Positions 3,167 to 12,692 of a stretch of 20,979 nt of DNA are shown here, piece by piece. The DNA comes from a virus. Positions within the stretch are counted from its first letter, which is position 1; each line of letters starts with the position of its first letter. The stretch covers positions 1 to 20,979 of the IMG/VR virus record IMGVR_UViG_3300017713_002800. One strand, written 5' to 3'. Under the pieces are notes generated by a model, which ran no database searches, was not told the origin of the DNA, and saw nothing but the letters and a program-made list of their open reading frames with translations. The position numbers and the translations under genes are program-made.

Positions 3167-3475
3167 TTATCCTTTTAGTAATGTCTTTGAATTATTGTCA
3201 ACCAATCCTCTTTTTGCATAATACTCATCGCGAGCTTTTTGCCTCCTTTCTTCACAATATGCCTTTTCACTATTTGATAATGACTCCCAGAATGCTGCAA
3301 ATTCGCCGGCTTTAGTATTCATATATCTATCATATACATCTTCCTTTGTTTCATTCAGATGTTTAGATAAAATGGTTCCTAATATTGTAGATGCCTTTGG
3401 TTGAACAGAAATTTTATTCTTTTCCATTTCTGCATACCATTCATTCATTATTTCTACTACTTGATCTTTACTCAT
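3167..3475 (-). CDS. Small soluble protein of unknown function
   Basis: The 102-residue product (MSKDQVVEIMNEWYAEMEKN...) is charged and mostly helical, with no signal peptide or membrane segment. Its central part (YMNTKAGEFAAFWESLSNSE) resembles no family I can name. AAAAGGAAT upstream of the ATG serves as ribosome-binding site. It is the first gene downstream of the permuted tmRNA and is followed after three bases by the HNH-like gene. It may share a transcript with the tmRNA precursor. Confidence 0.85.
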   Translation of the reverse strand: MSKDQVVEIMNEWYAEMEKNKISVQPKASTILGTILSKHLNETKEDVYDRYMNTKAGEFAAFWESLSNSEKAYCEERRQKARDEYYAKRGLVDNNSKTLLKG

Positions 3476-3499
3476 AACTTATTCCTTTTAATATTAATA

Positions 3500-3733
3500 C
3501 CTCCATCCTCCGGGTTATTTAACGACCTTTACCCTTTTATGGCCGGTGGTTCTGGGGACTTAATTAAGCCGCCATTGCCATTTCAACATGTTCGCCTGTT
3601 AAACGTGATCTTCATTATACCCTTACTTACTGTCAATTCCATAACATCCCCATATTGTAAGTTGTCACTTGGTGGAGATGCTGGGATTCGAACCCAGGTC
3701 CATATAAGCAGCTAATATAACTACTAGCGATCA
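3500..3733 (-). ncRNA. ssrA: Circularly permuted (two-piece) tmRNA
   Basis: Read on the minus strand, the tRNA-like 3' half comes first: a canonical T-arm CTGGG-TTCGAAT-CCCAG (3681-3697), acceptor strand CATCTCC (3674-3680), discriminator A and encoded CCA (3670-3672). After 18 spacer bases (3652-3669) the tRNA-like 5' half starts: GGGGATG (3645-3651), pairing over 7 bp (one G-U) with CATCTCC, then ATGGAATTGACAG, the usual tmRNA D-region. A long P2 helix joins the pieces (3626-3630 with 3704-3708; 3614-3620 with 3715-3721). A tag frame (3564-3596) and an H-type pseudoknot follow (CGGCC 3541-3545 with GGTCG 3523-3527; GGGT 3531-3534 with ACCC 3512-3515). A plain tRNA is excluded because no 5' half precedes the T-arm. 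Outer ends are approximate. Role: ribosome rescue by trans-translation. Confidence 0.88.
3564..3596 (-). other. tmRNA tag reading frame (GEHVEMAMAA)
   Basis: Within the tmRNA, GGC at 3594-3596 opens a ten-codon frame, Gly-Glu-His-Val-Glu-Met-Ala-Met-Ala-Ala, ended by TAA at 3564-3566. The Ala-Met-Ala-Ala end fits the ALAA/AMAA degron read by ClpXP, and A stands at -4 from the resume codon, as is usual. From memory, Bacteroidota tags begin Gly-Glu, which this one shares. The resume codon is inferred from these features. Confidence 0.75.
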
Positions 3734-3734
3734 T

Positions 3735-4082
3735 TTATAAATATACTTCTGCACCATTCTCATCATCTTCAAAGACTGATACATATACGCATTTAAACTC
3801 TTCCATAATTTCTTTTGCTAACATTTCACAACTCTTAGCTCCGAACTCATGTGTTCTAGATTCAAAGTTAAAGTACTCATGTTCTAGATATTCTATAATA
3901 TCTCTCTTGAACATAATAAACTCTACATCTCTATCATCATGATTAACTTGCTTCTTAGCTGTAATAAACCATTTATGTCTATGCATATGTGATAGGAACC
4001 CTACTTCTGGAAATACCTTATCAGCTGCTGGCCAATTATGTAATCCTTCTATTTCTAATTTTGCTATAACGTTTGTTTTCAT
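3735..4082 (-). CDS. Possible 6-pyruvoyl-tetrahydropterin synthase/QueD-like T-fold protein
   Basis: The 115-residue product resembles the T-fold of the 6-pyruvoyl-tetrahydropterin / 6-carboxy-tetrahydropterin synthase family. An early His (GLHNW, H15) and a SHMHRHKWF segment (31-39) recall the zinc-binding His and HGHNY motifs. VEFIMFKRDIIEYL recalls the family's D-F-x-x-L-K segment, and the C-terminal VSVFEDDENGAEVY recalls its final E-T-x-x-x-x-A-x-Y. Length matches QueD. The first step of queuosine-type base synthesis would be the expected role, but the motifs are not exact and no other queuosine gene is present. Treat it as fold-level similarity only. The stop codon abuts the 5' side of the tmRNA gene. 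Confidence 0.85.
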   Translation of the reverse strand: MKTNVIAKLEIEGLHNWPAADKVFPEVGFLSHMHRHKWFITAKKQVNHDDRDVEFIMFKRDIIEYLEHEYFNFESRTHEFGAKSCEMLAKEIMEEFKCVYVSVFEDDENGAEVYL

Positions 4083-9542: not shown

Positions 9543-12500
9543 TTACTGTTTAATAACCCTTTTAGTTATTCTTAACTCATCATAAAGTATGACCATATTA
9601 TATATACCATCTGGTACACTTGTAAAATCAATTCTATTAGAATTTTGTTCTGTAAACATTAATTTACCCATTATATCATATACCTGTACATCAATATTTA
9701 ATCTAGTATCTATATTTAATATATTTCTTGTTGGATTAGGATATACAACTATTCCCTGTCCTCCCAACTCATCTATTGAAGTTGGCCAACCTAATTGGCA
9801 ATAGTCATACATTGATTGACAACTTGCATCCCAATCATTTGTACAACAATAGTCATCTACATCAATTACCCAAGCATAGCATCCATCATTTAACCAATAA
9901 GGAACTCCTGGACCTCCATAACATCCTGCATTATATAAACAAGATGTCGAATCTGATACATTTGCTAATGGATCATAATTCCATGCACTTACATCGGTAC
10001 ATCCTATCACTATATCAATACAACTTCCATCATCAAAACAAGCATCCGGATCATAATTTAATGACCAATCTTGGGTACATCCTGCAATATAACAACATGA
10101 ATTATCTAATGTATTTGCTAATGGATTAAAGTTTAATGATGTATTATCAGTACAACCATATACATATGCCTCACATGTTCCGTTGTCTGTATTTGCAAGT
10201 GGATCATAATTAAATTGAGTTGAATCTGTACATCCATAAATAAATGGTATACAATTACCTGATGATGTATTTGCTAATGAATTATAGTTCCACATTGTAA
10301 CATCCATACAACCAATTACAACCGGTATACAAGAATTATCATTTGTATTAGCTAATGGGTCATAATTAAATTGAGTAGGATCTGTACATCCATAAATAAA
10401 TGGCACACAACTACCATCATCTGTATTTGCAGTTATACTATAATTGTACATGGTAGAATCTGTACATCCATATACATAAGGATCACAAGTACCATCATCA
10501 TCTGTAGCTAAAGGATTAAAATTAATTGATAAAGGGTCTGTACAACCTGCAATCTCTAACTCATCACAAACACCATCTGCATCTACATCATTTATACATG
10601 CGCCATAACAATCATAATATTGAATTGGATATGTACAACCTCCGTTATCTACATTTGCAATTGCATCATAGTTACATGCGGTAACATCTGTACAACCTAA
10701 ATAAATACAAGATAAGTCATCAACATTTGCTAATGGATTATAATTATATCCTGCCGTATCTGTACAACCATTAACAATTGGAATACATGAATTATCATCT
10801 ACAGTTGCTAATGAATCATAATTAAGAGCAAATTCATTTGTACATCCATATATAATAGGAATACATGAATTATCATCTACATTAGCATTTGGATCATAAT
10901 TAGCTGATGTTGAATCCATACATCCTAACACTGTTGGTATACAATATGTTCCACAGAATGGTATTGCTGTATATTTTGTAAAGAACGGAGAATCAAATCC
11001 TTGAAGTGCTCCTTGTCCATTATTTGCAAAAGGATTCTGTCCCTCATACATTAGTTCAACACCATTAGCATTTGTCAACTTAAATGAATTGTGCCAAGTC
11101 TGAAATTGTACTTCTTGTGGTGGTTGTTGTGGTCCACCTACTTCAAAATAGAATACTTCTACTGGCACACCAGGATCTAATATTATATTCCATGTTTGTT
11201 GATAATTTCCTGGCCCCATTGTATACGTTCCTAAGTCTATACCATTTTGATATACACCTATATAAGAATTACCCCAGCCATCACCTCCAGCATCTCCTAT
11301 CCATAATTCATAGTTACAATCTGGTACTAGGTCCATTATTGTTGCATTAGGATCATAATTAAATGCATTAGGATTAGTACAACCATATATATGTAAATTG
11401 GTACAAGACCCATCATCATTATTTGCTAATGGATTAAATTCTTGATAATCATCATCTGTACATCCGTCTATTGTTGGAATTGTAGGACATGGTGTTCCAA
11501 CTTGTGCTCCTGAATATAAAGTATTTCCAAATCCTGGATTGTCCATAAACCAAATAGTATCTCCTGCACAATCATAAATAACAATTGAACCATCCATTGT
11601 ACCACCTGATGTAGAACCTGCCATACCATCACCAAAGTCATCATTAACTATTAGTTCAAATCCTGCATTTTGATCTATACAGAAGTTATATGTATATGTT
11701 TGTCCTATATCATTAAAATCATATTCACCTACAAGTACTGAATCAATAACTCCTAAGCTATTCATTAACCAAGATGTTTCTCCTGGCCAATTATCTAATG
11801 TAATTTCCATTGTTATTTGGTATTCGGTTGTTGTATCACATACAGTTCCTGCACAACTACCATCATCATTAGTTGCCCATGGATTATAAGATACTTGAGT
11901 TGGATCTGTACAACCATCAATACATGGAGTAGGAGTATAAGTAATAGTATCAGACATAGTACCATCTGCAAACTCTACTTGTAAATAATGCTCTACTGAC
12001 CAATTAGGTGGCATTTGTCCGTTACCTGCATTTACTGCAAAATTAGTTGCATTAGGACCAACACCATATTGATATGGACCGACACCTTCTGCATTTGTAT
12101 ACCATACCTTAACTGTTTCGCATGATGGATTATATGCTTCTGTTGTCCATTCAAATATAATTAAGGCTTGTCCTCCTGGGTAACAATTTTGATATGCATT
12201 AGATGTTAAAATCCCACCACAGGCAGGATAAGTACAACTACCATCATCAATAGTAGCTAGTGAGTCAAAATTTAATGCATTTGTATCTATACATCCTGGC
12301 ACATCTGGTGCAGGTGGAGCACAAGGTGCAATTATTAATGTATCTGTATATAAAGTTCCAAAGTCTCCTGCTACATACATAATTGTATCTTGACAATCAT
12401 TTTGTATAAGGAACCATCCTTCCGGTGAACCATTAAATCCTCCTAAGCCATCACCATATTGATCATATAAATTAACAATAATAGTTCCACCTAGATCAAT

Positions 12501-12692
12501 TGTTGTATCATATAGAGTTTGGCCAGTCATTATAGAATCAGATTGTGCAATAATTGGATATCCGCCTGGAGGTGTTATTGTCCAAGAAGTTTCTGATGCA
12601 TAATCATCTGTTAATAATTGTATGTTTATCCAACTATTCTGTGCTAATAACATTGTTGGCAATAATGCCAATACTAATAATAACTTTCTCAT
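9543..12692 (-). CDS. Giant exported GCTD-repeat protein with T9SS type A sorting domain
   Basis: The 1049-residue product has a signal peptide (1-17, MRKLLLVLALLPTMLLA). Three N-terminal beta domains (about 18-580) carry WxI/SW...GG...D-x-Y-G-D-G motifs. About 16 copies of a Cys-paired repeat follow a pattern GC-[TM]-D, then N-[YF]-[DN]-P-L-A, then DD-[GN]-SC. Four are scattered in the N-terminal half and about 12 form an array (about 588-920). A Cys-rich CCTNDWDASCQ segment follows. The last ~70 residues are a type A T9SS sorting domain: VYPNPTRNILNID, VQVYDIMGKLMF, DGIYNMVI and a final basic KRVIKQ. In Bacteroidota such proteins are secreted and attached to the surface. The start overlaps the upstream 49-residue gene by ATGA. 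Role unknown; adhesion or surface shielding are guesses. Confidence 0.93.
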   Translation of the reverse strand: MRKLLLVLALLPTMLLAQNSWINIQLLTDDYASETSWTITPPGGYPIIAQSDSIMTGQTLYDTTIDLGGTIIVNLYDQYGDGLGGFNGSPEGWFLIQNDCQDTIMYVAGDFGTLYTDTLIIAPCAPPAPDVPGCIDTNALNFDSLATIDDGSCTYPACGGILTSNAYQNCYPGGQALIIFEWTTEAYNPSCETVKVWYTNAEGVGPYQYGVGPNATNFAVNAGNGQMPPNWSVEHYLQVEFADGTMSDTITYTPTPCIDGCTDPTQVSYNPWATNDDGSCAGTVCDTTTEYQITMEITLDNWPGETSWLMNSLGVIDSVLVGEYDFNDIGQTYTYNFCIDQNAGFELIVNDDFGDGMAGSTSGGTMDGSIVIYDCAGDTIWFMDNPGFGNTLYSGAQVGTPCPTIPTIDGCTDDDYQEFNPLANNDDGSCTNLHIYGCTNPNAFNYDPNATIMDLVPDCNYELWIGDAGGDGWGNSYIGVYQNGIDLGTYTMGPGNYQQTWNIILDPGVPVEVFYFEVGGPQQPPQEVQFQTWHNSFKLTNANGVELMYEGQNPFANNGQGALQGFDSPFFTKYTAIPFCGTYCIPTVLGCMDSTSANYDPNANVDDNSCIPIIYGCTNEFALNYDSLATVDDNSCIPIVNGCTDTAGYNYNPLANVDDLSCIYLGCTDVTACNYDAIANVDNGGCTYPIQYYDCYGACINDVDADGVCDELEIAGCTDPLSINFNPLATDDDGTCDPYVYGCTDSTMYNYSITANTDDGSCVPFIYGCTDPTQFNYDPLANTNDNSCIPVVIGCMDVTMWNYNSLANTSSGNCIPFIYGCTDSTQFNYDPLANTDNGTCEAYVYGCTDNTSLNFNPLANTLDNSCCYIAGCTQDWSLNYDPDACFDDGSCIDIVIGCTDVSAWNYDPLANVSDSTSCLYNAGCYGGPGVPYWLNDGCYAWVIDVDDYCCTNDWDASCQSMYDYCQLGWPTSIDELGGQGIVVYPNPTRNILNIDTRLNIDVQVYDIMGKLMFTEQNSNRIDFTSVPDGIYNMVILYDELRITKRVIKQ
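9939..10923 (-). repeat. In-gene tandem array of about 12 GCTD repeats
   Basis: This is the coding DNA for the repeat array of the 1049-residue exported protein. Units of roughly 26-30 codons recur with conserved ATCTGTACATCC- and GCTAATGGATCATA-like words on the plus strand, diverged enough that few units are identical. Each unit encodes two Cys about 17-18 residues apart, likely one disulfide per unit. Boundaries are approximate. Confidence 0.8.

Follow-up and report, generated by a model that had tools for sequence, protein, structure and literature searches.

We identified a circularly permuted (two-piece) tmRNA gene on the minus strand at 3500–3733 of the window, as we call the whole 20,979-base stretch analyzed, a viral fragment recorded in IMG/VR. 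The transcript is predicted to run from 3733 down to approximately 3500, and by its tag start, resume context and D-loop the molecule is of Bacteroidota type. We consider it very likely that the phage encodes a functional two-piece tmRNA of this type: the permuted order, a conserved acceptor with G3–U70, a P2 helix joining the two pieces, a tag frame and a pseudoknot are all recognizable in the sequence. The initial annotation had proposed a permuted tmRNA in a phage of a probable Bacteroidota host; the Bacteroidota-like sequence itself, which it did not mention, is the more interesting part.

ARAGORN predicted a permuted tmRNA at 3473–3765 on the minus strand, and the Rfam family RF04321 (tmRNA_permuted) matched at 3564–3722 with 67.2 bits (E 1.1e-12; gathering cut-off 47 bits), the sole family over its cut-off in the stretch scanned. 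The best clan match, RF00023 at 32 bits, stayed under its cut-off, in line with what a permuted gene should give. No above-cut-off match was listed for the lineage models RF01849-51 (alpha, beta and cyano) in an output that suppresses overlapping weaker clan matches.

Between the genes at 3735–4082 and 3167–3475, the minus strand reads P2 strands, T-arm, CATCTCC-ACCA, spacer, GGGGATG-TTATGGAATTGACAG, P2 partners, tag frame and pseudoknot, which agrees with the initial description of tRNA-like halves in swapped order, T-arm, CATCTCC and CCA preceding GGGGATG across an 18-base spacer. The acceptor piece (3670–3733) consists of the P2 strands, the T-arm and the acceptor 3′ strand CATCTCC with an encoded ACCA (3670–3680), its 5′ end being placed by the P2 pairing of GATC (3729–3732) with GATC (3607–3610); the P2 helix is built of three segments. 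The T stem-loop CTGGG-TTCGAAT-CCCAG (3681–3697) is supported by the RF04321 alignment, and its stem pairs vary among CG, AU, GC and UA over 32 homologues. The spacer (3652–3669), presumed to be excised, carries a small AAGU-GACA-ACUU hairpin that starts at the A of CCA and is kept in close relatives, while spacer length in wider relatives varies from 4 to 110 nt. On the other side of the spacer, the acceptor 5′ strand GGGGATG (3645–3651) forms 7 bp with CATCTCC, including the G3–U70 pair, which is the alanine identity element; the alignment pair concerned (77/106) is U–G in 32 of the 32 homologues. The D-loop-like segment TTATGGAATTGACAG (3630–3644) has the T before GAC that a motif census found for the Bacteroidota type.

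The tag reading frame GGC...TAA (3564–3596) encodes GEHVEMAMAA and is conserved in nine homologues. Its resume codon GGC lies in the loop of a stem AACA/UGUU (also given as AACU/AGUU; 3585–3600) that is 100% paired over the 32 homologues, with one compensatory change, and an H5-like helix found by RNAalifold and covariation surrounds the stop codon (3556–3570). An H-type pseudoknot follows 3′ of the tag (3512–3545), with S1 CGGCC/GGUCG and S2 GGGU/ACCC; both the tag frame and this pseudoknot had been noted from the letters alone. No convincing case was found for PK1, the upstream pseudoknot that two-piece tmRNAs typically have; a weak CGC/GCG was seen by eye in some homologues. The resume-codon stem was not seen in the few Bacteroidota one-piece genes that we viewed by eye.

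The gene upstream of the tmRNA (3735–4082, minus strand) belongs to phrog_17812, of unknown function, with relatives in Cellulophaga and Chryseobacterium phages, and the downstream gene (3167–3475, minus strand) is likewise of unknown function. No promoter or terminator stood out around the tmRNA gene, which starts directly after the stop codon of the upstream gene, so that cotranscription of the two is likely. No smpB was seen within the 21-kb fragment.

To find homologues, we performed pattern scans of 2.9 million viral contigs, which gave the close relatives L004-L014, L036, L048 and L212 first and later 71 more stretches. From nine sequences and with no structure given, RNAalifold recovered the acceptor, the T-stem, the three-segment P2, the resume-codon stem, the stop-codon helix and one pseudoknot stem. 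Across 32 distinct viral homologues, 95.2% of the cells of a 48-pair structure (P2, T-stem, acceptor, stop-codon helix and H-type pseudoknot) can pair; members of the set served to draw this structure, a circumstance that favors the percentage and not the count of double-sided changes. Such compensatory changes occurred at 24 of the 48 pairs (154 cells), and none of 500 shuffled controls was as high in pairing, double changes or covariation score; controls with slid partners paired at only 35–46%. The seven acceptor pairs (P1), the P2 helix and the pseudoknot claimed initially are thus upheld by covariation, and the two outcomes named as counting against the claim, no tmRNA-model match and pairings not kept by compensation, were looked for and the opposite was found for both. 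For the pseudoknot the support comes from the homologues: a search with the window sequence by itself was weak, 16 of 60 shuffles being as good, whereas S1 and S2 (helices 8 and 9 of the 32-sequence structure) both vary by compensation, S2 appearing as GGGAU/AUCCC, GAGGU/ACCUC, GAAGC/GCUUC, GGGAC/GUCCC and GGGU/ACCC.

The tag most likely starts at GGC, one codon before the GAA chosen by ARAGORN, and does so in all homologues. All nine close homologues share the pattern GGC-(GAA/GCA)-...-GCN-ATG-GCN-GCN-stop, with synonymous third positions, an -AMAA ending and TAA, TAG or TGA as the stop, and the tags in relatives include GEQVEMAMAA, GEQVEYAMAA, GESVEMAMAA and GTQVEMAMAA. In total, at least 42 viral contigs carry a tag of the G-x-x-V-x-x-AMAA type: 13 with a complete tag from the first scans, among them the window, and 29 from the two final scans. 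Many relatives (L275-L323) end in CTCCAC and do not encode CCA; the window type does, so that within the group CCA is sometimes encoded and sometimes added. Six further contigs (L276, L288, L296, L307, L339 and L341) have Bacteroidota-type permuted TLDs with no convincing tag frame and are possibly tag-less or have an unusual tag.

The assignment to the Bacteroidota type draws on the motifs, a log-odds profile and a tree. Bacteroidota one-piece genes have tags GE(N/T/S)NYALAA; their D-loop mostly has T ahead of GAC, and their resume codon is GGC (93 of 114 distinct sequences). The phage clade has the GGC resume codon in 8 of 8 distinct rows and the D-loop T likewise in 8 of 8, while other viral permuted tmRNAs resume at GCA or GCC (33 of 37) and have TTCGAC in all 36 readable rows; because several search patterns included the D-loop base, it is the resume segment and the tag, both outside any pattern, that carry the weight. 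T before GAC alone is not decisive, since four new matches with AND-type tags and this T scored negative. In the log-odds profile, the clade scored +18.5 to +37.7 bits toward Bacteroidota one-piece genes and away from other permuted tmRNAs, with +11.6 to +16.0 bits from the resume segment alone; the window scored +19.8 bits, 15.9 of them from the resume segment. Other permuted genes all scored below -14 when left out one at a time; on a recount with a larger one-piece set their leave-one-out maximum reached +3.5, and 16 of the 106 one-piece genes scored negative. The margin by which these sequences lean toward the Bacteroidota type is real, not absolute. In the tree, the phage clade and a prophage copy described below group with 71 Bacteroidota one-piece genes (support 99/90), and the E. 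coli one-piece gene groups with the other permuted genes, indicating that the split tracks phylum and not gene form.

Nearly all sampled Bacteroidota have only the one-piece form, in agreement with the initial annotation: in an even sample of 395 genomes, 362 had a one-piece tmRNA over the cut-off and one had a permuted tmRNA. A sample of one order (396 genomes, overlapping the first) returned the same single genome, and a survey of a second phylum through L094 (G413), not Pseudomonadota, gave 1 of 284 over the cut-off and serves as background only. The permuted copy (G252:C1:986035-986308, L177) lies on a Bacteroidota contig of 1.6 Mb on which T9SS genes are found too, in a genome that has its own one-piece tmRNA. 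By eye, its neighbors are tRNA-Met, tRNA-Ile, a DNA polymerase/exonuclease, a helicase and other phage-like genes, and the region G252:C1:976200-996100 (L177 / L211) is an apparent prophage. Its tmRNA resembles that of the window in being permuted, in its Bacteroidota-type TLD and in its phage context, but has the tag GKVIQMNNAPVRLAA of another family, a spacer of ~100 nt and no encoded CCA. Tags related to GKVIQMNNAPVRLAA are found in the viral contigs L272, L306, L312, L326, L328, L331-L333 and L336.

Split tmRNAs are known from three bacterial lineages and from mitochondria, and phage copies have been read as borrowed from those. The sequence type points elsewhere: a one-piece gene of Bacteroidota was probably permuted within the virus line, in an event separate from those of the alpha-, beta- and cyanobacterial lineages. 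With moderate confidence, we propose a fourth, independent origin of split tmRNA, in Bacteroidota phages and not in a cellular lineage, which would extend over two or more tag families in viruses (G-x-x-V-x-x-AMAA and GKxI...AP(V/L)R) and be compact enough, at ~230 nt with one clear pseudoknot and the resume codon in a small hairpin, to serve as a minimal working tmRNA. Alternatively, the phage line may have captured a permuted gene of alphaproteobacterial, betaproteobacterial or cyanobacterial origin that became Bacteroidota-like later, by selection or by recombination with the host gene. Phage-to-phage transfer of permuted tmRNAs has been proposed from phylogeny (PMC9004378), the phage Melnitz offers a precedent from SAR11-type phages, and AU tests did not reject a single clade of phage and other permuted genes (p 0.138, 0.088 and 0.261; 0.048 with the prophage copy added). 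Yet a captured gene would have needed replacement of its 5′ TLD half, its resume region and its tag, and both profile and tree put the molecule with Bacteroidota one-piece genes, the grouping of the E. coli gene again following phylum rather than gene form; we regard capture as possible but rather unlikely. Independent permutation is the favored explanation over one clade, while the topology test, with only 64 alignable columns, falls short of proof (p 0.05–0.26).

The probable Bacteroidota host named initially is well supported, short of proof. Two minus-strand genes of the window encode proteins with T9SS sorting domains, one of type B (CHU_C) at 421–1524 (PF13585, 54.9 bits; TIGR04131, 36.4 bits) and one of type A, in a protein of 1049 aa, at 9543–12692 (PF18962, 40.2 bits; TIGR04183, 42.2 bits). 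The T9SS is a secretion system of Bacteroidota. Four related contigs with a tmRNA share the type A protein, and L311 has a different one, of 1504 aa; these T9SS-sorted proteins would be cargo for the type IX secretion system of the host. One T9SS-sorted phage protein has many CTDPxxxNYDPxAxxDDGSC repeats. A scan of genomes with the 1049-aa protein gave no confirmed relative, and DNA relatives among isolated phages were limited to short T-arm matches. The terminal lysis-type protein of the window resembles proteins of Bacteroides and crAss-like phages, lysozyme-like and DksA-like genes are common to the window and its sister contigs, and in the sister contig L004 a run of genes is collinear with Flavobacterium phage immuto, among them one for a baseplate wedge protein that is 42% identical over 98% of its length. 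Immuto, the nearest isolate relative, has no tmRNA. Given the T9SS type A and B proteins, the synteny of the sister contig with immuto, the phage relatives and the GE- tag, a marine bacterium of the Bacteroidota is the most likely host, and very probably the true one. The structure could be right and the host another, with T9SS-like tails acquired by chance: the host is deduced from gene content only, and a sister contig has one baseplate protein that lies close to a Microcystis phage as well. Against this, the two T9SS proteins are of different type, relatives occur in Flavobacterium, Cellulophaga, Chryseobacterium and Bacteroides phages, the tag is of GE type in a Bacteroidota resume context, and a Bacteroidota prophage carries the same RNA type, so that we consider a host outside the phylum improbable.

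Known two-piece tmRNA biology (PMC3985003; PMC11915505) suggests how the molecule would work. A single precursor, probably cotranscribed with the upstream gene, would be cut by tRNA-processing enzymes of the host, with removal of the spacer: RNase P would cleave at GGGG, and the 3′ end would be formed by trimming at CCA or, where this is not encoded, by CCA addition. The acceptor and coding pieces would be held together through the acceptor and P2 pairings, AlaRS would load alanine, and host SmpB and EF-Tu would deliver the tmRNA to stalled ribosomes. Translation would resume at GGC, appending Ala-GEHVEMAMAA, and Clp-type proteases would degrade the tagged chain; the phage may gain by maintaining ribosome turnover while host and phage mRNAs are degraded.

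The RNA could instead act mainly as a decoy that sequesters SmpB, AlaRS or tagging capacity and so inhibits trans-translation in the host, a role suggested for the TLD-only tmRNA of mycobacteriophage DS6A; a TLD-only phage tmRNA expressed in E. coli inhibits the host tmRNA (PMC11915505, PMC4131195). For such a role the TLD alone would suffice, and the conservation of the tag frame, the stop-codon helix and the pseudoknot makes it quite unlikely. That the gene is a nonfunctional remnant, an attachment-site copy left by integration or a fragment from imprecise excision, is scarcely credible: tmRNA genes are often used by integrases and fragments are found in prophages (PMC9004378), but a fragment of a host one-piece gene would not be permuted, constraint extends across all 9 helices and the tag, and the gene is present in at least 42 contigs. 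A chance match, a pseudogene or a misread tRNA is ruled out by the Rfam score and the covariation.

Functional tagging by a Bacteroidota-type RNA remains our preferred reading, and the initial suggestion of a new combination holds in part: a Bacteroidota-type permuted tmRNA in a phage with a Bacteroidota host looks new, while two-piece tmRNAs in phages as such had already been published (PMC9004378). In that study, 53 of 133 phage tmRNA structures were called two-piece, 50 of these from marine or aquatic phages, and a tmRNA database holds 11,946 permuted sequences and 79 phage entries (PMC11915505). Among the papers searched, we found no report of a Bacteroidota-type permuted tmRNA, and an unlabelled entry in the supplementary tables of these two papers is possible. 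The window gene shares with the known permuted tmRNAs of RF04321 the permuted order, the two-piece TLD, the acceptor and T-arm placed before the coding piece, and the tag frame, but differs in its Bacteroidota-type D-loop, GGC resume codon and GE...AMAA tag, and its coding piece is very short, with a single clear pseudoknot. The two-piece tmRNAs of Methylophilales phage Melnitz and further marine phages (PMC9004378) are similar in that a T4-like marine phage carries a complete permuted ssrA; the Melnitz molecule belongs to the alphaproteobacterial type (tag ANDNYVPVDYALAA, TTCGAC), has a long spacer and is linked to a glutamine riboswitch, whereas the window has the Bacteroidota type, an 18-nt spacer and no riboswitch match in the stretch scanned. 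The one-piece genes of Bacteroidota, for instance those of Alkalitalea, Marinilabilia and Mangrovibacterium, resemble it in the TLD bases, the resume context TTTAACTGGCGAA and the GE- start of the tag, but are unpermuted and 350–400 nt long, the phage gene being permuted and ~230 nt.

If correct, the occurrence of a Bacteroidota-type split tmRNA in viruses and of the one-piece form in their hosts would mean that phages can be the place of origin of the rearrangement. It would also provide a natural comparison of two RNAs in one cell, host one-piece and phage two-piece, and a very small tmRNA for asking about the role of pseudoknots and the resume context.

Two minor observations concern the surroundings of viral tmRNAs. 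A ClpP-family protease gene (PF00574, 105–114 bits) is present at L289:5695-6342, L013:7310-7930 and L212:3999-4658 and in about ten further contigs; where the spacing was worked out, it lies ~2.5–4 kb downstream of the tmRNA on the same strand. A protease of this family near a degradation-tag RNA could form a functional pair with it, or could be a prohead protease there by chance. Finally, in the viral contigs L043 (3554-3992) and L045 (2715-3153), a permuted tmRNA prediction with the tag ANDYDLAIAA overlaps a tRNA-Asn and adjoins a tRNA-Gly.
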